Both the position numbers and the translations under genes were made by a program. The notes beneath the pieces are model-generated. The model made no database searches. It was not told the origin of the DNA and saw only the letters and a list, made by a program, of their open reading frames with translations. Shown one piece after another: positions 3,131 to 15,526 of a stretch of 32,143 nucleotides of DNA. Numbering within the stretch: the stretch's first letter is position 1; every line of letters starts with the position of its first letter. Source of the DNA: Geobacteraceae bacterium (GTDB lineage: Bacteria; Desulfobacterota; Desulfuromonadia; Geobacterales; DSM-12255); contig JACABD010000037.1 in assembly GCA_013377075.1 (NCBI GenBank), forward strand, positions 1-32,143, read 5' to 3'.

Positions 3131-6100
3131 TTAGTAAGTCGACCAGATTGGTGAGGTTCTGTAGTGGCAGTCTGTGTTGGAGCATGACTTCGGATTAACC
3201 GATGAAGATGTTCCGCTCTGACCATTGTACTTGGCGTGCAGCGTACCAAATTGACGCGATGTAGATGCAGTACCAAAAACAATACTGCGTGGGTTGCCAG
3301 GTGTTGCTGTTGTGTGCTGTGCCGAATCAGTAGTATGGCAGACACCGCAAATCACATTAAAGGTTGCACCGCCAAATGTATCGCCGGATGCGTTCATGGT
3401 CACACCAGGGTTTCTGGCAAGCAGGTAGTTAATATGCTTGATGTGAGCGCCGACCCCCTGGTTATTAGCACCGTAGTTTGAAGTCCATGAATCTGTCGGC
3501 AGATAACTGTGACAGCTGTTGCAGGACATGGTGACTTCTACGCTGCCATTAACATGGAGATTCTTGTCAGTAAAGACGTTACTGACACTGGTCGGTGCTG
3601 CTAGTACGTTATAGTGACAAGTCTTACAGCTGGTGGATACTTTAGCGATCGAACTGATGTTACTCAGTGTCTTTACGCCGATAGACAGGTGTGTTCCTGT
3701 TTGTGGCGGCATGGCGTGGCACTTGATACATTCGCCAACTGTATTGCCGGATTCCCTGACTATTCCGGTAATATTCCAGAACGGTGAAGCCATGCTGCCG
3801 GTCTTGCTCTGACCGTTGTGACAGTAGACATTGCTACACTGGAAGATACCGCCTACCCGCCCGACTGTAGGAGTTGTGATTGTAGCCCTTGCCCCACGGA
3901 AAGAGAGGGTAGCTGTTGAGTAGTTCCAGTGGCTGCCAGAACTCATATTGGTTACCGGCAGGTGACATTCACCGCACTTGACCGGAGCGGAAATGACATT
4001 AGATACAAGGTGACGTTGGTGAGCACCGACTCGTGCTGACGTCGCTGCACTGTTCACCATTGATGTATCGGTACCCTCATTGTTGTAGCCCGGAGCGATC
4101 ATTGCTGAAGAGTAGTTAGTGAGGTAGTCAGCAGTTGTTGTAGTACCGTGACACTTGGTGCAGCTTCTTACACCGGCTGCGCCTGAGTTGGCAGACTTGG
4201 CACCGCCCCAGACCGGCTGTGCCTGGCCGTGGCAGATTACGTTGCTGCATGTTACCTGATTGACGTTCTGCACTGCTGCCGCATTTGGTCCTACATATGC
4301 CTTTGTTTTATTGAAGACTAGATCCAGTCCGCTATTAAGGTGAGCAGTTGAGATAGGCCTGAACCTGTTTGCAGTCAATGCATCGCCTGTTTTTCTGTGA
4401 CAGTCAGCGCAGGCTGTTGTATCAGCCATGCCGGCAAGGTGACCCTGGTGGAGGTTGGATGTTGGGGAATTAGCACCACCGTTGACATAGTCAGGATAGC
4501 CGAGAGCATTACTGCGACCATGGCACTGGTTGCAGGTAGTAATTGTGTAAGATGAATTCCAGTTTTTGCTGGCAGTCATATTTACATAAACAATTGCACG
4601 CGGGTTACCGTTGGAGTGACAGTAGACGCTATTACAGTTGCCGTTTTTCCCGGCAGATGTATCAAGACCTTTATTGGCCTTTGCACCGGAGTAGTTCACT
4701 GCTGCATTTACGTGCAGTTTCTTATTAGCAAGCGTGATGTTGTTGGTATTGGAAATAACCTGAGCATGACAGTCAACACAGTTATAACCGTTGCCCCTTC
4801 CCATGAACTGGTTTGAAGAGTAGTTCATGTGAGCATCATGCTTACCTGAAAGGGTAGATCTTTTTGCTGGGACTGTCGTACTCTTCTTGCCGTCGTGACA
4901 GAAGAGACAGTTTTGTCCAGCTGCAACCGGAGTCGTCGTCCAGTTAAGGAAGGTGATTTTTGGTGCCCCACCTTTGCCATCAGAGTGACAGTAACTTGTG
5001 TTACATGAACCGGCAGTAAATTTGAAGCCGTTGTCGTTCTTGCTGTTTGCAGTGCCACCATATGAGTAGATACCGCGTTTGCTGCTGGTCGCCGGTGTCG
5101 CAGAGGAGATCCCGTAGAATACCCTGGCAGCGCTGTTGGCAGAAGCAGGCTTGAGGCTGTGTTTGGCTACGTTATCGTCATGGCAGTGAGCGCAGTTGAA
5201 ACGGTAGCTGTTTGTGTCGCTGATATCACGAACTGTATCGGTATAAACCGTAGGCAGCGATGTGTAGTTGTAATGTGTTGCGTGGCGACCTGACCATGAA
5301 ACGTCAGATGCCTTAGTTGATGCGGAGTGGCAGGAGTTACACTGGGTAGTGCCGTTGCCCCACTGAGGTGATGATTTAACGCCGTGGCAGAACGTGTTGG
5401 AACATGACCCAAATGCAGCTGAGCCTGAAGGCTTCAATTTACCAGTAAGGTAAACAGAACCTACAGAGTAACTATTTGGCTGAAGCTGAATGTAACTGGT
5501 GAAGTTAACAAAGACGTTGCCATCGGCATGCATGTTATCAAAGCCGTCGCCACCATCCTGATGACAGTAACCGCAAGGTACGTTCATACCGGATGTTGTG
5601 TTGGCATGTTTGAAGTGACTACCTGTGGAGGTTCCGACAGGCTCAACAGCGAAGTTCTTGTGACAGGAACCGCAGTAAACATCGCTGCTCTTGCCCCATT
5701 GCGGTGTGGCATAATTGTTTGGCAAACCTTGACCAAGACCTGTTTTTCCTTGAACATCGCTATGACAGTAAATTTGTGAACAGGTACGATAGTCTGTACC
5801 GTTATTTCGAGGGACCAGACCCATTATAGTCCCGGAAGACATGCCGTTATAGGCGGCATTTGGGCCGAATACCGGGCTGGTACGATCAAGCTGCCAAGAG
5901 ATACCTCCCTTGATGTGTGTTCCGTTATCCGGAACAACACCGTGGCAGGATTGACAACCAACAGCCATAACTTTAATGGCATGGCGCTGGTGAGATCCAC
6001 CGGTAGGTGCGTTTGCGTTATCAGTACCGTGACAGTCACCACAGACAACAGCACCTTCCCAGTTAGGTGTTGTATTTGCACCACCGCCGATAGGCTTCAG

Positions 6101-9100
6101 GTTATTACTATCGCTACCACTCCCATTGCCGGTACCGCCACCATGGCAGTAAAGGTTTGAGCAGGTGACTCCCTTGACATTCGATTTTGCCAATGTAGTA
6201 CCGGCGCTTGTGGCAGACCAGTGCGGCCCGTTGACACTGTTGGTATACCCTGTAAAGGTACCGGTGGTAACTGCACCGCCAAGACCATTGAATCCGATCT
6301 CTAGCGTGTTGCTCGGCATTGCTCGGGTATAGCCGTTATGGCAGGTATTACAATTTGAGGATATCTGCGGCAGCAACTGGTGAGCGTTGTGTGCACCTGC
6401 CTGACCGGATGTCAGCGCGTTCTGTGCCGGTGTTGCCAGACCGTCAACGGTTCCTATGGTGGAGCTAATAGGAGGATTACCGTGGCATCCGCCGCAACCG
6501 CCGTCTATCTTGCCGTTAACGTGGAGTTTCTTGTTGGAGAAGCTGAGGCCGTCACCACCGACATGATTGTGACAGTCTTTGCACATCGCAAGGGTTACAC
6601 CACCAAGGTGCTGTGAGGTTGCACCAAGAGGTGGCATGGCATGACAGCTAGTACAATCGGCATTACCGTTGCCAGTGAGGAATTCCTGATTCCATTTGGG
6701 CACTATCCGATTTGCCGGGGCAAGACCGACGTAACTTCCCTGACCGCGGTTGGAGTTCATACCTGCACCGTGACACCAGATATTGTTACAGGTTTTAGTG
6801 GCTGCGTTGAAGGTCGGTGTAGAATAATAACCGAAAGTATCACCGTTATGTGAGATTGAGCTGACGTGCGCGAAGGTAGACTCAGCCGGTAGTGCTGAAT
6901 CGATGTGTCCTGGGGAGAATGGTCCGGTAGGCACATAGTGGCACTGATTGCAGCTGAAAGGTGCAGCGTATGAAGTGAATCGGGCAAATGCAGTTTTTCG
7001 CGGAGCATTCAGATTCTGTATATGAATACTATGTGTACCGACACCGGATTCATTGGCATAGGCAGAAGAGCCTGGCCCTTTTGTGCCATAGAAACCGCCT
7101 GTTGATGTTGCAGAGCCATGACACTTCTCACAAAGCGGAAGGCCGGATGGTGCTGTTCCCCACGCTCTCTGGAAACGACCGTGGCAATCGCTGTTATTGC
7201 AGACACCAAATGCAGTTCCTACTTTTACTTTTGTACCTTTTGAATAGGCGGTGTTTTGTGCAAGACCGTTAAACTCGAAGTCGACATAACCATTAGCATG
7301 ATTTCCAGGTGTGGTAGTACCACCGTTTCTATGGCAGACGTGGCAGTCAAATGCCACCTCTGCATTTTCATGGTTAAGGTGCGATCCACTGGCATTTGGC
7401 AGAGCATGACAGCTTCCGCATGGCGCTGTACCGCCCCAGGTTGCAAATTTATAGTTCTGAGGACCGCCAACACCATTAGCTGCCTGGGTAATATTACGAA
7501 CGTCACTGTGGCAGTAGAGATTGGTACACTGTCCATATGTTTTGGTGCTATCTGCCATACCGGTTGTTGCACCGGCATTGGAGCCATTGTACGTTGCAGA
7601 CGTACCAAATGAGGTATATGTAGCCATGGACCATTCAACCTTACCGTTTATATGAGCTGCTCCGGTATAGGATTTATAGGTTCCGTGACACTTTGTGCAG
7701 GCAATACCGAGACCAGCACCTGTTGTTGAAGCATGCTTCAGGTGGCTTCCACCCTGGGGAGGAGTTGTGCCGGTTGCATAGTGGCAGCTACCGCAGACGA
7801 TTTCGTTTCCATCGCCACCCCAGATAGGCTCCTGCTGGGCACCCTGATTAGCATTGCCCGGCCAGTTACCGTGACAGTAGGTTACGCAGGAGTTATTATA
7901 ATCATTGGTTGTGTTAATAGTTGTACCAGGGCCACCGGTCCAGGCTAGTGGAAAGTTAAGATTTGTTGTCCCCCAGAAAGTGCCACCTGTTACCGATGCA
8001 GATGGGTCAGTGTTAAAGCCGGCAAAGGTATCCTTGTTAATCAGGAATCCCATCTCCAGGAAATTATTGCCAAGCCAGCCGGATGTGGCAGCACCGTGAT
8101 TGGTATTGCTGTGACATGCGGCGCAACCAACTTGAATAGCATCATGACGTTTGTGAGCACCATAGTTTGAAGGTAGTGGCCCCATTGCGTTTGTAGCAGG
8201 TTTGGCCATCGTATCATTGTCAACAGGGAAGAAGCTTACGGAAGTACCATGACAATCGCCGCAGACACCGGTTATTGAGCGGAAAGCGGTGTTGTGGGTG
8301 TGGCAGTTTATACAGTCACGGGAATTATTGTGATTTGACTGATAAGTATCGCTATTGGTCGGACCACCGAAAGGCTTATTGGCGCTGTATTGGTGCTGAC
8401 GTGTTTTATGATGGCAGACGGAGCAGACCATGGTCGATCCGTTCTTTACAGCACGCTGGTCGTTTCCATATGCACCGGTTGACCCTGATGTTGCGTTAAA
8501 GACGACATTACGACGTCCGATTGGTGTTGAAATTTGCTGAAAGATACCTTTGATATTGGTTGTACTGTTAGAGTGGCAGGTTGCGCAGGTATAAGTCTGG
8601 CCCCAACCACCATAGGAGAACTTGCCCATATTGGCACTGTTATGGACGATCGGTGGCATATCATTCAGAACACCTGAAACGGCTGCACCGATATTCGGGT
8701 TAATTGTCGGGGTTGTCTGGTAATTGGCATAAATTGGAGCACCACCGTTATATCCTGGTGCTGTTACTGTAACCTTGAAAGAGTAATTCTCAAGTTGGCG
8801 GGCGTCAAGCTGTTGCTTGGTACCTACAGAGCTGATTGTAATAGGTACGCTTGTTCCTGTGGAGGCATGGCCTGCGCCACCAGTACCGAGGGTAACTGTT
8901 GGCGAAAATGTCTTGGTAAAATCGGTGACATTCTGACTGGCGGTTTCACTCACAATTGCAATATCGTAGGTAACATCCGGACAGACACCGGTATCCATGT
9001 TGGAAACCTGCAGGCCGTATGGTGTACCTGTAGACTTGATTATCTGCGAATCGGGAACAAGCTTGACCAGCGGAAGATTACCGCAGACGCTATGAACTTT

Positions 9101-11263
9101 TGCTGTGCCGGCTGCTGTCAACCCCTGGCTGATATTCCCGAGGAGATCGACTGTACAGATACGGTATTTGTACTTGGTTGCCTGTGTACTGACAAGTCCG
9201 GAATCAGTAAATGCAAGCACATTTCCAGCAACACCTATGTCAGTTCCATCAATACAGTAAGGATTCGGGTAGCCTCCACTCGGAGCAGAGCGCATAACCT
9301 TGTAAGGAGTGGCGACATTAAGAGAACCACCGTTAGGATCGGATGCGGCTGTCCAGGTAAGATTCAGAGTACCGTCAGTGTCTGTTGTTTGAGCTGGAAG
9401 CGCATTAAAAGCAGGAACATTGTTTGGATTTTCAAAGTCAATAGCAACTGTCTGGCTGCCTGTATCCCCAAGAACCAGCTTATTGTTGGATTTGCTGTGC
9501 ATCAGGCCGGTAATCTTGCCACTGACACCGTAGTATCCGGTTGCAGTGCCTGATGTGTCATTTAGGGATGGGATAATATTGTCGGCAGTGCTGATGCGAA
9601 TGTAGTAGGTCGCAGGAGATGATGTCACCGGAATAGCTGTTGTAAGCGGGATATCCCAGGTATCACCGGCCAATGCTGACGGCATTGAGCCATAAGAAGT
9701 GGTGTTGGCGACAGAACAGCTGTAGCCATCCGGCTCCAGAGAGCTGCACTTAATAATCTCCACCTTCTTTATTTTAGAGAGCGTTGCAGCAGTACCACCG
9801 GAGATATATTGGGGGGCAAGTGTCGCAGTGACTGATGTGATAGTGTCATCATCTGTCGGAGAGGTGCCAGTATGGCTGACAGTAAATGCATCCATAAGAG
9901 TCGGCGCACTTGAGTTTTTGACACGAGCAGCGGCTGGCTCTGTGCCGTTGCCAATCACTGTAGACACCATAAGGGTTAGTGTAGCGCTTGTTGCAGCCGT
10001 ATCACTGACAGTTCCGCCAGTCGGTGTTATCCCGGTGATATTTCCAGTGAGCTTGACTGCTGTTCCGTTGCCAATAGCCGCCGGGTTAATGTCGTAGGTA
10101 ATTATGTAGTTTGTATTTGCCACAATAGTTTCGGATACCGGTACCGTTACCGGGAATGTTGGGTTTGAAACGGATCCAATAAGAGTATCAGTAGGTGATC
10201 CCGAGTATACTGTTGTATTGGCATCCCCTTTTTTATAGATCGAAACTTTAGAAATATTGGCAGGAGTTGTGTATGCATTACCTGTGATGGTAATACCGGT
10301 CAGAGTGCCACCCCCTGTTACAGTAAAGGCATCAACAACCTTGTTTGCATCGCCGGCGTAAACATCAAGTGGCGGCGGTGTTACACCAGTAGTAATCCCA
10401 GGCATTGCCAACTGCTTTATCACCAGGGCTGTCATACTGTTAAGAGTTGACGCATTGGATGTATGCTGCGAGGTGTAAGTTCCTGCGGTATTTCTGTAAG
10501 CAACTTCGAGTCTTGCACCATAAGCTGCAGCGCCTGTGCCGCCGGTCCTGGTTGTATTTCCCCGGGCTGTCCAGCCTGTCTGTAGTGTAATTGTCGGCGC
10601 AGTTGCAATTCCGGTACGCAGACCATCAATTACTTCGATAGCATAATCACCAGTTGCAATTACCAGGGAAGGTGTTATTGGACCAACAACAGTTCCTGCT
10701 GTCCCTGCATTGCTATATGTTGAGGGTAACGGAGTCTGGAAAGGTGTTCCCTGATCTACACCACTGTATACCGCGGCATTGGCGTATGTACCTGTGTAGG
10801 TGGAACCACCGGTAAAGGTGAAAGAAAGGTTTGTTCCTACAGCAGCAGCGATTTGAGCCTCTTTGAGATAATAGAGGTATGTATGCTGCCTGGTGAGGCT
10901 TGCTTGGTCCGATGTTGCCAGCGAAAGCGTCTGGGCACCGAATTGTATGGTCGGCACCGGCCCGGCAACTGCAGTGGCCGTATTAACAACCAGAGCAACA
11001 ACCATCAGCCTGTTACTTCCAGCCGGAACCGCTCCAAAAGCGTTGGTTGCAGTCGGCAGTGCGGTTGTACCACGGAAATATGCTGTGCCTGTTACCGAAG
11101 TACCAGCTGTATTCCTCCAGTTCTGGAGAGCCGCCACAGCTGCATCAGCACTTCGAGGCAGAGTCAAACACGAGAAGGAGACAAGGAGCGCCAATAATAA
11201 TAACGTCCCCCTTCTTGCTAGTGGATTCATTCCTCGGATGTTATTCACGAGTTGTTTTCCCAT
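3131..11263 (-). CDS. Giant 43-heme c-type cytochrome, 2710 aa
   Basis: Signal peptide at residues 1-42 (hydrophobic TLLLLALLVSFSC, cleavage near ADA/AV). Residues 42 to about 890 are heme-free: first the beta-sandwich shared with the downstream cytochrome (NRLMVVALV, AAVYSGVDQG), then Thr/Gly-rich beta repeats, then a fibronectin-III-like segment near 635-740 (LTWTAASDPNGG, YKYRICTVD). Residues 893-2700 hold 43 heme-binding motifs by direct count: 31 CxxCH, 11 CxxxxCH and one CxxxCH. From the CxxxCH onwards the order is one spaced motif followed by two CxxCH, repeated, with two five-heme exceptions. GGGAGG lies 9 bases before the ATG; a second ATG at codon 12 is less well placed. Family knowledge suggests extracellular or outer-surface electron transfer. 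Whether it forms filaments, or sits with a porin, cannot be seen. Paralogue of the next gene downstream. Confidence 0.93.
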   Translation of the reverse strand: MGKQLVNNIRGMNPLARRGTLLLLALLVSFSCLTLPRSADAAVAALQNWRNTAGTSVTGTAYFRGTTALPTATNAFGAVPAGSNRLMVVALVVNTATAVAGPVPTIQFGAQTLSLATSDQASLTRQHTYLYYLKEAQIAAAVGTNLSFTFTGGSTYTGTYANAAVYSGVDQGTPFQTPLPSTYSNAGTAGTVVGPITPSLVIATGDYAIEVIDGLRTGIATAPTITLQTGWTARGNTTRTGGTGAAAYGARLEVAYRNTAGTYTSQHTSNASTLNSMTALVIKQLAMPGITTGVTPPPLDVYAGDANKVVDAFTVTGGGTLTGITITGNAYTTPANISKVSIYKKGDANTTVYSGSPTDTLIGSVSNPTFPVTVPVSETIVANTNYIITYDINPAAIGNGTAVKLTGNITGITPTGGTVSDTAATSATLTLMVSTVIGNGTEPAAARVKNSSAPTLMDAFTVSHTGTSPTDDDTITSVTATLAPQYISGGTAATLSKIKKVEIIKCSSLEPDGYSCSVANTTSYGSMPSALAGDTWDIPLTTAIPVTSSPATYYIRISTADNIIPSLNDTSGTATGYYGVSGKITGLMHSKSNNKLVLGDTGSQTVAIDFENPNNVPAFNALPAQTTDTDGTLNLTWTAASDPNGGSLNVATPYKVMRSAPSGGYPNPYCIDGTDIGVAGNVLAFTDSGLVSTQATKYKYRICTVDLLGNISQGLTAAGTAKVHSVCGNLPLVKLVPDSQIIKSTGTPYGLQVSNMDTGVCPDVTYDIAIVSETASQNVTDFTKTFSPTVTLGTGGAGHASTGTSVPITISSVGTKQQLDARQLENYSFKVTVTAPGYNGGAPIYANYQTTPTINPNIGAAVSGVLNDMPPIVHNSANMGKFSYGGWGQTYTCATCHSNSTTNIKGIFQQISTPIGRRNVVFNATSGSTGAYGNDQRAVKNGSTMVCSVCHHKTRQHQYSANKPFGGPTNSDTYQSNHNNSRDCINCHTHNTAFRSITGVCGDCHGTSVSFFPVDNDTMAKPATNAMGPLPSNYGAHKRHDAIQVGCAACHSNTNHGAATSGWLGNNFLEMGFLINKDTFAGFNTDPSASVTGGTFWGTTNLNFPLAWTGGPGTTINTTNDYNNSCVTYCHGNWPGNANQGAQQEPIWGGDGNEIVCGSCHYATGTTPPQGGSHLKHASTTGAGLGIACTKCHGTYKSYTGAAHINGKVEWSMATYTSFGTSATYNGSNAGATTGMADSTKTYGQCTNLYCHSDVRNITQAANGVGGPQNYKFATWGGTAPCGSCHALPNASGSHLNHENAEVAFDCHVCHRNGGTTTPGNHANGYVDFEFNGLAQNTAYSKGTKVKVGTAFGVCNNSDCHGRFQRAWGTAPSGLPLCEKCHGSATSTGGFYGTKGPGSSAYANESGVGTHSIHIQNLNAPRKTAFARFTSYAAPFSCNQCHYVPTGPFSPGHIDSALPAESTFAHVSSISHNGDTFGYYSTPTFNAATKTCNNIWCHGAGMNSNRGQGSYVGLAPANRIVPKWNQEFLTGNGNADCTSCHAMPPLGATSQHLGGVTLAMCKDCHNHVGGDGLSFSNKKLHVNGKIDGGCGGCHGNPPISSTIGTVDGLATPAQNALTSGQAGAHNAHQLLPQISSNCNTCHNGYTRAMPSNTLEIGFNGLGGAVTTGTFTGYTNSVNGPHWSATSAGTTLAKSNVKGVTCSNLYCHGGGTGNGSGSDSNNLKPIGGGANTTPNWEGAVVCGDCHGTDNANAPTGGSHQRHAIKVMAVGCQSCHGVVPDNGTHIKGGISWQLDRTSPVFGPNAAYNGMSSGTIMGLVPRNNGTDYRTCSQIYCHSDVQGKTGLGQGLPNNYATPQWGKSSDVYCGSCHKNFAVEPVGTSTGSHFKHANTTSGMNVPCGYCHQDGGDGFDNMHADGNVFVNFTSYIQLQPNSYSVGSVYLTGKLKPSGSAAFGSCSNTFCHGVKSSPQWGNGTTQCNSCHSASTKASDVSWSGRHATHYNYTSLPTVYTDTVRDISDTNSYRFNCAHCHDDNVAKHSLKPASANSAARVFYGISSATPATSSKRGIYSYGGTANSKNDNGFKFTAGSCNTSYCHSDGKGGAPKITFLNWTTTPVAAGQNCLFCHDGKKSTTVPAKRSTLSGKHDAHMNYSSNQFMGRGNGYNCVDCHAQVISNTNNITLANKKLHVNAAVNYSGAKANKGLDTSAGKNGNCNSVYCHSNGNPRAIVYVNMTASKNWNSSYTITTCNQCHGRSNALGYPDYVNGGANSPTSNLHQGHLAGMADTTACADCHRKTGDALTANRFRPISTAHLNSGLDLVFNKTKAYVGPNAAAVQNVNQVTCSNVICHGQAQPVWGGAKSANSGAAGVRSCTKCHGTTTTADYLTNYSSAMIAPGYNNEGTDTSMVNSAATSARVGAHQRHLVSNVISAPVKCGECHLPVTNMSSGSHWNYSTATLSFRGARATITTPTVGRVGGIFQCSNVYCHNGQSKTGSMASPFWNITGIVRESGNTVGECIKCHAMPPQTGTHLSIGVKTLSNISSIAKVSTSCKTCHYNVLAAPTSVSNVFTDKNLHVNGSVEVTMSCNSCHSYLPTDSWTSNYGANNQGVGAHIKHINYLLARNPGVTMNASGDTFGGATFNVICGVCHTTDSAQHTTATPGNPRSIVFGTASTSRQFGTLHAKYNGQSGTSSSVNPKSCSNTDCHYRTSPIWSTY

Positions 11264-11900: not shown

Positions 11901-13364
11901 CTAGTTGTATGCACTCTCCGAATGCTGAGTCTGGTCAAGCCCCATAACCTCGTCCTCTTTTTCAACTCTTAAGCCAATTGTCTTATGGAGTACAAACACT
12001 ATTACAAGTGTAACCACAAAGGCGTATACACCTGCTGCGCCGACTGCAATCAACTGGGTAACAAACTGCTTTACATCTCCGGCAAGAAGCCCTTTGGCTC
12101 CGACAGTCGCAAAGACACCGGTCAAGATCGCTCCTGTGGTCCCACCTATACCATGAACACCGAAAGCATCAAGAGAGTCATCATATTTGAGTTTGGCCTT
12201 GAGCATAACGCCACCATAGCAGATGACACCGGCAACCAGACCGAGAATTATTGCGGCCCCTGGCTGCACAAAACCTGCAGCAGGGGTGATGACAACCAGA
12301 CCAGCAACCACGCCTGAACCGAAACCGAGAGCAGACGGCTTCCCAGAGTGAATCCATTCAGCGATCATCCAGGAAAGACCTGCTGCCGCCGGAGCTATAG
12401 TTGTGGTTGTCATAGCAAGACCGGCAAGTCCTCCAGCGGCATCGGAACAGTTCGCACCGACAATGGCTGAACCGGCGTTAAACCCGTACCATCCAAACCA
12501 GAGCATACCGACACCGAGCATGGTGAGTGGCAGGCTGTGTGGTGCCATCCTTTCCGTTGGGAATCCATGACGCTTGCCAAGAAAAATAAGCGCTGCCAGA
12601 GCTGAAACACCTGAAGAGAGGTGAACGACAGTTCCACCAGCAAAATCAAGGGCACCCTTTTTAAAAAGCCAGCCGTCGGTCATCCAGACCCAGTGGGCAA
12701 GTGGATCATATACCAGCGTTGTCCAGAGCAGAACAAACAGACAGTAAGCAGAGAACTTGATCCGCTCTGCAAGGGCACCTGATATAAGGGCAACTGTGAT
12801 TATAGCAAACATGCACTGATACATGGCAAACACATACTCAGGAATGGAACCGGGTTCAGTTGCAACGTTCTGAAAGAGCGCATATATCGGATTACCGTCC
12901 TTGCCAAAGGTAAGCAGACCGTTCAGCATGGCCTTGCTGGTATTACCGATAAGCCCCATAAATGCATCGGGGCCGAAGGAGAGTGAGTATCCGATAACTG
13001 CCCACTGCACTCCGACAATCCCCATGGCAACAAAAGAGTGCATCATTGTCGAGAGAACATTCTTCTGGCGCACCATTCCGCCGTAAAAGAAAGCAAGCCC
13101 GGGGATCATGAATAGTACCAGCGCGCTCGAAATAAGCATCCAGGCCGTGTCTCCGGTATTGAGAACCGGTTCGACATTTTTAGGTTTCGGCGTTTCTGCC
13201 GGCGCGACAACAGCCGCCGTTGCTCCGCTAGCCGCAGGAGCCGCCGGATCTGTAACTGAAACTTGAGCCGGTGTAGCCTTTGGCTCTTCGGCTGTTGCAA
13301 TTAATGGGAGCATCAGCAGAGTCGAAAGTAGTAGCAGCTTTATCAACAATCCTCTTGTTTTCAT
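11901..13364 (-). CDS. amtB: Ammonium transporter AmtB
   Basis: Inner-membrane ammonium channel of the Amt/Mep/Rh family, 487 aa. Residues 1-25 are a signal peptide. Residues 26-66 are an Ala/Pro-rich linker. The channel then begins at LNTGDTAWMLISSALVLFM with about eleven membrane helices. The twin pore histidines are visible at about H248 (VVHLSSG) and H404 (GVHGIGGTTG), spaced as in characterised AmtB proteins. The signature GMLWFGWYGFNAGSA is present around 286-300. GGAGG lies just before the ATG. It follows glnK by 53 bases in the usual glnK-amtB order, so GlnK should gate it. Transcription is expected from the RpoN-type promoter at 14714-14729, subject to the leader terminator. The long linker is typical of some bacterial Amt proteins and is not a sign of fusion. 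Confidence 0.97.
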   Translation of the reverse strand: MKTRGLLIKLLLLSTLLMLPLIATAEEPKATPAQVSVTDPAAPAASGATAAVVAPAETPKPKNVEPVLNTGDTAWMLISSALVLFMIPGLAFFYGGMVRQKNVLSTMMHSFVAMGIVGVQWAVIGYSLSFGPDAFMGLIGNTSKAMLNGLLTFGKDGNPIYALFQNVATEPGSIPEYVFAMYQCMFAIITVALISGALAERIKFSAYCLFVLLWTTLVYDPLAHWVWMTDGWLFKKGALDFAGGTVVHLSSGVSALAALIFLGKRHGFPTERMAPHSLPLTMLGVGMLWFGWYGFNAGSAIVGANCSDAAGGLAGLAMTTTTIAPAAAGLSWMIAEWIHSGKPSALGFGSGVVAGLVVITPAAGFVQPGAAIILGLVAGVICYGGVMLKAKLKYDDSLDAFGVHGIGGTTGAILTGVFATVGAKGLLAGDVKQFVTQLIAVGAAGVYAFVVTLVIVFVLHKTIGLRVEKEDEVMGLDQTQHSESAYN

Positions 13365-13417: not shown

Positions 13418-13771
<354 letters not shown>

Positions 13772-13807: not shown

Positions 13808-14548
13808 TCAGAAAACGAAAGCGGCCTTCAGTCCGACAATGCTCTGATTCTTAACACCACCAATTCTCCCTGCAGAGTTAAATGCGTTCGAGTAGAGATA
13901 ATTGGGGGTGACTTTGAATTTGTCGTTAATTGAATAATCGACACTGGCGCTAAGTTCATAGTTGTCCAGGTTATTATATTTAACGGCAGATGCAGAAGGG
14001 TTCTCCATATTGTAACTTGCCAGAGCACCCAGGTTTAGGCCGAGATTCTTTGCCAGCTCAACTGTATGGCCGACTGAAAGAGAATAGAAAAGTCCGGTGT
14101 TCCTGCTCTTGTCCCAGTCATAGTAAACGGCGAATGTCGGTGAAAGTAGTTTGTTGAGTGTTGCCTTCAGATAGACTTCGTTTGTATTGGGAGCACCACT
14201 AAGAGTGTAGTAGGTATTACCGACGTTCAGGGTCAGCGCCTCGACAGGTGTGTAGGCATAATTTAACGTAATGTCTGTCTCGGTAGTCTGACCTGCTTTA
14301 AAAGTGGTTGCAGGATCATAGCCGCTGAACATCTGCTCATTACTCCAGTAACTGACTGTAAAGTTCTTGTAGCTGACATCAACTCCACCCTGCATTACCC
14401 CTCTGCTCTGGCTAAGATCAAGCCCTCTAAAGACATATTTGCTGGCAGGATTGATATAGACATCTCCGGTAACCTTATCCTCTGCCACTGCTACTGCCGC
14501 CACTGCTAACGATAAAACTGCTGAAACTGCAATAATAATTTTTTTCAT
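13808..14548 (-). CDS. Gcw_chp / TorF-family putative porin
   Basis: 246 aa, starting at the ATG at 14548 with GAGGGG about 8 bases upstream. Residues 1-24 are a signal peptide ending AVAVAEDK. The mature protein begins DVYINPASKYVFRGLDLSQS, a pattern of the Gcw_chp (TIGR02001-like) family, followed by alternating beta strands and the closing IVGLKAAFVF, where the terminal aromatic residue suggests an outer-membrane barrel. The family often accompanies glnK-amtB in Geobacter-like and other proteobacteria, and its exact substrate is not established. The gene is first in the operon and lies 155 bases from the predicted transcript start, with the ANTAR-type leader between. A role in uptake of a nitrogen compound under limitation is inference from context only. 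Confidence 0.88.
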   Translation of the reverse strand: MKKIIIAVSAVLSLAVAAVAVAEDKVTGDVYINPASKYVFRGLDLSQSRGVMQGGVDVSYKNFTVSYWSNEQMFSGYDPATTFKAGQTTETDITLNYAYTPVEALTLNVGNTYYTLSGAPNTNEVYLKATLNKLLSPTFAVYYDWDKSRNTGLFYSLSVGHTVELAKNLGLNLGALASYNMENPSASAVKYNNLDNYELSASVDYSINDKFKVTPNYLYSNAFNSAGRIGGVKNQSIVGLKAAFVF

Positions 14549-14615: not shown

Positions 14616-14654
14616 AAAAAAGGCGCTCTTCCGTAATGGTAAGATGGCGCCTTT
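14616..14654 (-). terminator. Leader attenuator (intrinsic terminator) before the Gcw_chp-glnK-amtB operon
   Basis: Minus-strand arms AAAGGCGC (14654-14647) and GCGCCTTT (14626-14619) pair perfectly. Inside them TCTT pairs with AAGA, and CC with GG around ATTAC. The T run reaches 14616. It lies upstream of the first gene of the operon, so it must be bypassed for expression. Its 5' arm is the loop and 3' side of the second hexaloop hairpin. Confidence 0.88.
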
Positions 14655-14693
14655 GCCTTCCTTGCGTTTCATCATATGCACGACATTGTGCAT
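14641..14693 (-). promoter_or_regulatory. Dual hexaloop ANTAR-type RNA target in the operon leader
   Basis: Hairpin 1 (14693-14676): stem ATGCAC/GTGCAT, loop AATGTC. Hairpin 2 (14662-14641): stem AGGAAGGC/GCCATCTT with one A-A mismatch and one G-T pair, loop AAAGGC. Both six-base loops have A at position 1 and G at position 4, the known ANTAR recognition rule. The hairpins are 13 bases apart. Hairpin 2 uses bases of the terminator 5' arm, so the two folds exclude each other. An ANTAR protein is encoded immediately upstream, which makes it the obvious ligand. Confidence 0.82.
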
Positions 14694-14713
14694 TCTGATT
14701 GTAGTTAACTTAT

Positions 14714-14729
14714 AGCATAAGCCGTGCCA
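14714..14729 (-). promoter_or_regulatory. RpoN (sigma-54) promoter for Gcw_chp-glnK-amtB
   Basis: Minus-strand TGGCACGGCTTATGCT. The -24 GG (14728-14727) and -12 GC (14716-14715) have the required 10-base separation, and TGGCACG matches the consensus -24 box exactly. Predicted transcript start is near 14703, about 10 bases before the first ANTAR hairpin. glnK-amtB operons are classic RpoN targets. An activator site was not identified. Confidence 0.85.
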
Positions 14730-14859: not shown

Positions 14860-15450
14860 CTAACGAGCAACAGAGCCATTTACCCCACCCTCGGTAAGCA
14901 GGACAGCTTCGGCGATTCTAAGAAGCGTCGTCCGTTTATCCATAGCAAGCTTCTGCATTCTTCTGAATGCCTCTGGTTCGCTCAGCCCGTGCAAACTCAT
15001 CAACACACCCTTTGCCCGCTCAATCGACTTCCTGTTTTCAATGGCACCTTCAAGAGCAGTAATTTTGTCCTTGAGCTCCTTCAATTCGTGATCGTGAACC
15101 GCTGCAACCTCTATTGCCGACCAGAGTTCCTCCTTGCGCAACGGCTTGGCAAGAAAACCTCCGGCGCCAGCAGCAATGGCTTTATCTATTAATTCACTAC
15201 TGAGTGCATCTCCAAACAGAATGACCGGAATCTTGATCTTCTCCCGCATGGATTTAAGCGCATGAAACCAGTCTCCTCCAGAAACAGATGTGTCGATAAT
15301 CACCACATCGGGAAGGTGGTCAACCGCAAGCATAACTAACCGCTCGGCAGCAGTGGACTCTAAAATTTCAGCAAACCCCAACTCTATCAGCATAATTTTG
15401 AGGCGTTCACTCTCTGAGGCAGTAGCTGTACATATAAGTGCATTCTTCAT
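14860..15450 (-). CDS. ANTAR-domain response regulator, putative transcription antiterminator
   Basis: 196 aa from the ATG at 15450, chosen because AAGGGGGTG precedes it at good spacing. A 20-residue longer reading starting at 15510 would overlap the probable promoter. Residues 1-120 are receiver-like: Asp53 (VVIIDT) and Lys102 (LAKP) are present, but the acidic pair after the first strand is replaced by TATASES. Residues 122-140 look like a coiled linker. Residues 138-190 form the ANTAR RNA-binding domain (IENRKSIERAKGVLM then a helical end with LLRIAEAVLL). ANTAR proteins bind dual AxxGxx hexaloops and stop terminator formation. In Geobacter sulfurreducens the ANTAR protein GnfR acts this way on nitrogen genes. 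This protein may be GnfR or a relative; I do not assign the symbol. No partner kinase is in the window. Confidence 0.9.
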   Translation of the reverse strand: MKNALICTATASESERLKIMLIELGFAEILESTAAERLVMLAVDHLPDVVIIDTSVSGGDWFHALKSMREKIKIPVILFGDALSSELIDKAIAAGAGGFLAKPLRKEELWSAIEVAAVHDHELKELKDKITALEGAIENRKSIERAKGVLMSLHGLSEPEAFRRMQKLAMDKRTTLLRIAEAVLLTEGGVNGSVAR

Positions 15451-15510: not shown

Positions 15511-15526
15511 AGCATCAATCGAGCCA
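15511..15526 (-). promoter_or_regulatory. RpoN (sigma-54)-type promoter of the ANTAR gene
   Basis: Minus-strand TGGCTCGATTGATGCT has GG and GC elements with the 10-base separation. It shares TGGC-CG and ATGCT with the promoter at 14714-14729. The predicted start near 15500 gives a leader of about 50 bases to the ATG at 15450. One mismatch in the -24 box makes it somewhat weaker than the operon promoter. Confidence 0.65.

Follow-up and report, generated by a model that had tools for sequence, protein, structure and literature searches.

The window, by which we mean the whole stretch of 32,143 nucleotides from a Geobacteraceae bacterium, harbours on its minus strand the gene of an ANTAR protein (15450-14860), followed by a sigma-54-like element, two hairpins (P1 and P2), an intrinsic terminator and the genes Gcw_chp, glnK and amtB. 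The features discussed here are the following:

15511..15526, minus strand: sigma-54 promoter-like element of the ANTAR gene, TGGCTCGATTGATGCT, 76 nt before the ATG, conserved in orthologs
14860..15450, minus strand: predicted ANTAR antiterminator with a decayed receiver, a GnfR relative (PF03861 1.8e-20, PF00072 2e-10)
14714..14729, minus strand: sigma-54 (-24/-12) promoter-like element of the leader, TGGCACGGCTTATGCT, one mismatch to TGGCAYG-N4-TTGCW
14676..14693, minus strand: P1 hairpin, ATGCAC[AATGTC]GTGCAT, 6 bp with an A1/G4 hexaloop, from folds and covariation
14646..14657, minus strand: P2 (antiterminator) hairpin, GGC[AAAGGC]GCC, 3 bp with an A1/G4 hexaloop, from fold and conservation
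14616..14654, minus strand: intrinsic terminator, stem AAAGGCGC/GCGCCTTT and U run, -16.3 kcal/mol
13808..14548, minus strand: Gcw_chp outer-membrane-like protein, first gene after the leader (PF09694 2.4e-6)
13418..13756, minus strand: glnK, P-II protein (PF00543 3.7e-34)
11901..13364, minus strand: amtB, ammonium transporter (PF00909 6.5e-129)
3131-11263, minus strand: giant multihaem cytochrome after amtB, 2710 aa with 31 CxxCH motifs

Around the ANTAR gene lie genes for cold-shock, DUF4388, Gcw_chp, P-II and AmtB proteins. The identity of the first operon gene varies: proteins similar to the Gcw_chp protein of the window occur in G004 and G012, and in most relatives (e.g. L032:3931-4674) another outer-membrane-like family (PSTQIWIPSTD...) without a Pfam match comes first.

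The leader has the anatomy of an ANTAR target RNA, comprising two hairpins of at least 3 bp whose hexaloops carry A1 and G4, an intrinsic terminator overlapped by P2, and one ANTAR protein encoded in the same genome, adjacent to the leader. An earlier note on this DNA had described the hexaloops AATGTC and AAAGGC, and both are present at that place in hairpins folded on the minus strand. The 13-base spacing that it gave between them applies only when P2 is extended to 14662-14641 across an A-A mismatch; the spacer between the minimal stems is 18 nt, and it ranges from 11 to 20 nt in the relatives scanned. The terminator arms lie at 14654-14647 (AAAGGCGC) and 14626-14619 (GCGCCTTT), and the U run then extends to 14616. 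The 5' arm consists of the P2 loop and the P2 3' arm, as the earlier note had proposed, and the P1+P2 fold and the terminator fold are therefore mutually exclusive. Folding bears this out: a growing transcript ended at 14640 or 14630 adopts the P1+P2 fold, and the terminator fold wins once its 3' arm exists (-27.2 vs -20.1 kcal/mol with P1+P2 forced). The 104-nt leader region has a Z-score of -2.88. A scan for dual A1/G4 hexaloops with an overlapping terminator returned one site in the window, with a score of 28, and the same scan of 60 Markov-simulated, window-sized sequences gave a best score of 22.5 and none equal to 28. The observation of the earlier note is confirmed, as is the position given for it.

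The sigma-54-like element of the leader combines a -24 GG with a -12 GC at the right spacing and stands at the same place in homologous leaders; the genome also carries a sigma-54 gene. The near-perfect sigma-54 promoter that had been claimed some 10 bases before the first hairpin is upheld by its single mismatch and its conservation, and the transcript is predicted to start at about 14702, about 10 nt ahead of P1. The element of the ANTAR gene is present with no more than two mismatches in 37 of 56 orthologs, where 1.4 would be expected, and its usual distance from the start codon is about 75 nt. Since a sigma-54-like element precedes the ANTAR gene as well as the leader, regulator and target are probably switched on together. 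In Geobacter sulfurreducens a sigma-54 promoter was predicted for the P-II gene GSU0939, where primer extension did not detect it and an RpoD start was seen (PMC2725144); this weighs against the preferred explanation.

The arrangement extends beyond the window. Relatives found by their ANTAR protein (L032-L034) keep the order of ANTAR gene, sigma-54-like element, leader and glnK-amtB, the genome G002 has the layout of ANTAR gene, leader and operon seen in the window, and leaders directly before glnK also occur in more distant Desulfuromonadales loci (L069, L072, L077). Of 58 related genomes searched with a covariance model built from seven leaders (R1), 28 contain the leader; these belong to seven genera in two families. 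This count includes genomes with E<1e-6 only; weak matches of relatives near E 0.01 were left out because two matches at that level in the genome of the window (C2:51120 and C64:21805, E about 0.01-0.02) had to be rejected: they lack hexaloops and are simply terminators. In the leader alignment (A3) A1 and G4 of the P2 loop are invariant; the three top P2 pairs and the terminator are retained in 22/22 leaders, the latter with 93% of cells paired. In the seven leaders 92% of the P1 and P2 cells pair, with a covariation of 0.466 compared to 0.147 after shuffling and at most 0.249 for slid versions; in a structure-free alignment of the 22 leaders the corresponding values are 0.150 and 0.074 (shuffled). 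The covarying positions reside in P1 and the outer P2 pairs, the inner P2 pairs being invariant among the 22 leaders, and covariation of the terminator is uninformative since its pairs hardly vary. Compensatory changes in homologous leaders, which the earlier note had named beforehand as a test of its proposal, are thus present in P1.

These data also bear on the simplest alternative, namely a plain terminator whose hexaloop hairpins arose by chance, or a palindrome in the DNA, in which the ANTAR protein would have no role. Intrinsic terminators are common, and in two relatives that hold the leader no ANTAR gene is detectable: G007 and G010 (genus g5; loci L105, L137 and L147) are near-complete genomes that possess both the leader and the kinase described below, and a search for an ANTAR protein in these two found none, which counts against our preferred explanation as well. 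However, the hexaloop letters, the stem covariation, the overlap of P2 with the terminator and the sigma-54 spacing are conserved jointly, and shuffled sequence gave no comparable site, all of which makes a plain terminator or palindrome very hard to believe.

The genome contains one further convincing R1 match (E 4e-6), located just upstream of nifH (G000:C45:8171-8251, L098). A sigma-54-like element is present in this second leader, and P2 and the terminator are perfect. The P1 is atypical in that, from a reading of the sequence, only a 5- or 7-nt loop is possible; it is a weaker leader, and we count this against the preferred explanation. In two relatives (L043, L050) the ANTAR gene itself precedes nif genes.

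Leaders of this type have precedents. Like the ANTAR dual-hexaloop RNAs of EutV (eut), NasR (nasF) and AmiR (amiE) (PMC3369931, PMC8934654), the leader has two A1/G4 hexaloop hairpins with P2 over the terminator; unlike them, it has a sigma-54-type promoter, a longer linker and a Geobacterales-specific sequence, and a search of Rfam matched no family above threshold. The linkers of Enterococcus faecalis ANTAR RNAs measure 5-12 nt, and 14 nt reduced induction (PMC3369931), whereas the linker here is 18 nt (or 13), a difference that speaks against the preferred explanation. ANTAR leaders preceding P-II and ammonium-transporter genes, and the nitrogenase regulon of Pelobacter carbinolicus, have already been listed (Ramesh et al. 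2012, PMC3369931). Since these leaders have been reported and GnfR is known, the leader is not new: it illustrates known biology cleanly and belongs to the GnfR-type antitermination system of Geobacter. In that system a sigma-54-type master system and GnfR antitermination reportedly act in series, as Ueki and Lovley are said to have described in 2010.

The claim that an ANTAR regulator is encoded immediately upstream proved correct: the protein matches PF03861 and PF00072 and is the sole ANTAR protein of its genome, and in the relatives surveyed ANTAR genes likewise occur once per genome where present. Its ANTAR domain is homologous to those of EutV (6wsh) and Rv1626 (1s8n), the closest solved relatives of the protein. 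Because the genome has no other ANTAR protein, and because four close relatives share the layout of ANTAR gene, leader and operon, the natural reading is that this protein would act on the adjacent operon. The protein is 46-49% identical to the orthologs of loci L035-L041 and nested among them in the protein tree, where the clade of the window (100/100) falls on a long branch within a Geobacteraceae group with intact receivers.

It is in the receiver that the protein departs from its relatives. The key positions read T-A-D-G-K in the window compared to D-D-D-T-K, that is, both acidic metal-binding positions and the Thr have gone and the phospho-Asp and the Lys are still there; as these two residues remain, the window receiver might still be weakly phosphorylated, a point against the preferred explanation. 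Both acidic positions and the Thr are also lost from the receivers of G002, G003, G005 and G009, and in the sister G002 as well as in 12 g14 genomes the phospho-Asp is replaced by Glu, which by analogy with other response regulators could mimic phosphorylation. Loss of phosphorylation residues, and the Glu for Asp of G002 and g14, are shared with the aspartate-less receiver (ALR) domains (PMC4395418); in contrast to these, the window protein retains the Asp and has lost the acidic pair and the Thr. The decayed receivers are under purifying selection (L033-L034, dN 0.09, dS 1.31) and are therefore not debris; they possibly serve dimerisation or the binding of a partner. In the Malonomonas relatives (L073, L074, L075) a further ANTAR group lacks the receiver Thr (D-E-D-A-K).

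The decay of the receiver coincides with the loss of a kinase. The gene immediately downstream of amtB codes, in those relatives that were inspected, for a short kinase (HisKA and HATPase_c); in the window this place is taken by the giant cytochrome gene. G002, G003 and G009 likewise have a similar giant gene next after amtB, and the contig of G005 ends there. The paired kinase GnfK and regulator GnfR of G. sulfurreducens are GSU0941 and GSU2822, respectively (PMC7962754), and we take the kinase after amtB to be GnfK by its position (P-II GSU0939, gnfK GSU0941) and because it forms a single orthologous family. This kinase was the query in a search of 58 genomes that separated orthologs (at least 222 bits) from background kinases (at most 166 bits); a GAF-type Desulfuromonas kinase beside L076/L077 was dropped as a query because its matches were mostly generic kinases. 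In the genome of the window, which is 95% complete, the search for a GnfK ortholog yielded a best kinase of 146 bits, i.e. background, and only background scores were obtained in the sisters G002, G003, G005 and G009. Among the 52 genomes with an ANTAR protein that were compared (G038 and G054 were left out, and G001 and G006 are incomplete), the receiver is intact in 28/28 kinase-bearing genomes (DDDTK, once EDDTK) and decayed in 24/24 kinase-less ones. Counted by genus, the kinase-bearing are 11 intact and none decayed, the kinase-less none intact and six decayed; the exact probability of 8e-5 assumes independent genera, which they are not, and serves as a guide only. Three families (f1, f3 and f4) each contain both states, so that parsimony on the taxonomy requires at least three independent losses.

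On these grounds we consider it probable that the locus is a GnfR-type attenuator that has lost its kinase, whose ANTAR protein is likely to work independently of phosphorylation under feed-forward control driven by sigma-54. RNA polymerase with sigma-54 would start about 10 nt ahead of P1 and, unless prevented, stop at the terminator. The neighbouring ANTAR protein would bind the hexaloops of P1 and P2, hold P2 and block the terminator, whereupon transcription would proceed into Gcw_chp-glnK-amtB, and it probably acts likewise before nifH. With GnfK gone and the receiver hardly phosphorylatable, antitermination would most likely occur without phosphorylation; a regulator that does not depend on phosphorylation is also what the loss of the kinase most simply suggests. 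The nitrogen signal would then enter mainly via sigma-54 activators acting on the ANTAR gene as well as on its target. This would make a feed-forward AND gate, to which the terminator would add the need for accumulated regulator.

An unlinked, diverged kinase could instead still phosphorylate the receiver. The window protein does retain the phospho-Asp and the Lys, and its genome is rich in other histidine kinases; against this stand the loss of the acidic metal-binding pair and the Thr, the Glu for Asp of G002 and the 12 g14 genomes, and the gap between 146 bits for the best GnfK similarity in the genome and the 222 bits or more of orthologs. We regard such a kinase as improbable. Somewhat better placed, though still unlikely, is a variant in which leader and ANTAR protein act as proposed and the decayed receiver is governed by a protein partner, P-II (GlnK) being one candidate. 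Purifying selection indicates that the decayed receivers are still functional, glnK lies in the target operon, and control by a partner is documented for ANTAR proteins of the AmiR and NasT type, which are controlled by AmiC and NasS, respectively (PMC3369931, PMC3795266). As in AmiR and NasT, a receiver-like domain would be used without a phosphorylating kinase; in contrast to them, the decay arose inside a kinase-keeping family, and no AmiC- or NasS-like sensor was found among the genes near the ANTAR gene. A more elaborate conjecture, to which we give little credence, is that after the loss of the kinase GlnK came to bind the decayed receiver in a nitrogen-dependent manner, forming a feedback loop to its own antiterminator that arose more than once.

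Measured against GnfK/GnfR of G. sulfurreducens, the preferred reading of a phosphorylation-independent attenuator retains the orthologous ANTAR family, nitrogen genes including nif targets, and control at both sigma-54 initiation and termination; it differs in the missing GnfK ortholog, the decayed receiver and the position of the ANTAR gene beside the glnK leader. The analogy to EutV and GnfR drawn in the earlier note accordingly holds for the dual-hexaloop leader and fails for the phosphorelay, given the decayed receiver and the absence of the kinase, a change of input that the note had overlooked.

Unexpectedly, every sampled genome that lacks the kinase has also lost phosphorylation residues from the receiver. 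With both states in each of three families, this constitutes a natural experiment on the passage from a phosphorelay to an RNA regulator that works without phosphorylation, and it leads to the prediction that nitrogen control is altered in specific ways in these bacteria. The RNA-binding domain is retained despite the decay; its key ANTAR motif residues are preserved in the f1 and f3 lineages, with some of them changed in f4. The RNA switch is retained too in two of the three families, f1 and f3. In genus g9 of f4 (L204, L205, L207, L208 and L210) a different conserved leader lies 150-170 nt before glnK, in which a sigma-54-like element is followed by a GTCCTCCTTCT stretch and a GC-rich terminator without a dual hexaloop; this is possibly another attenuator.
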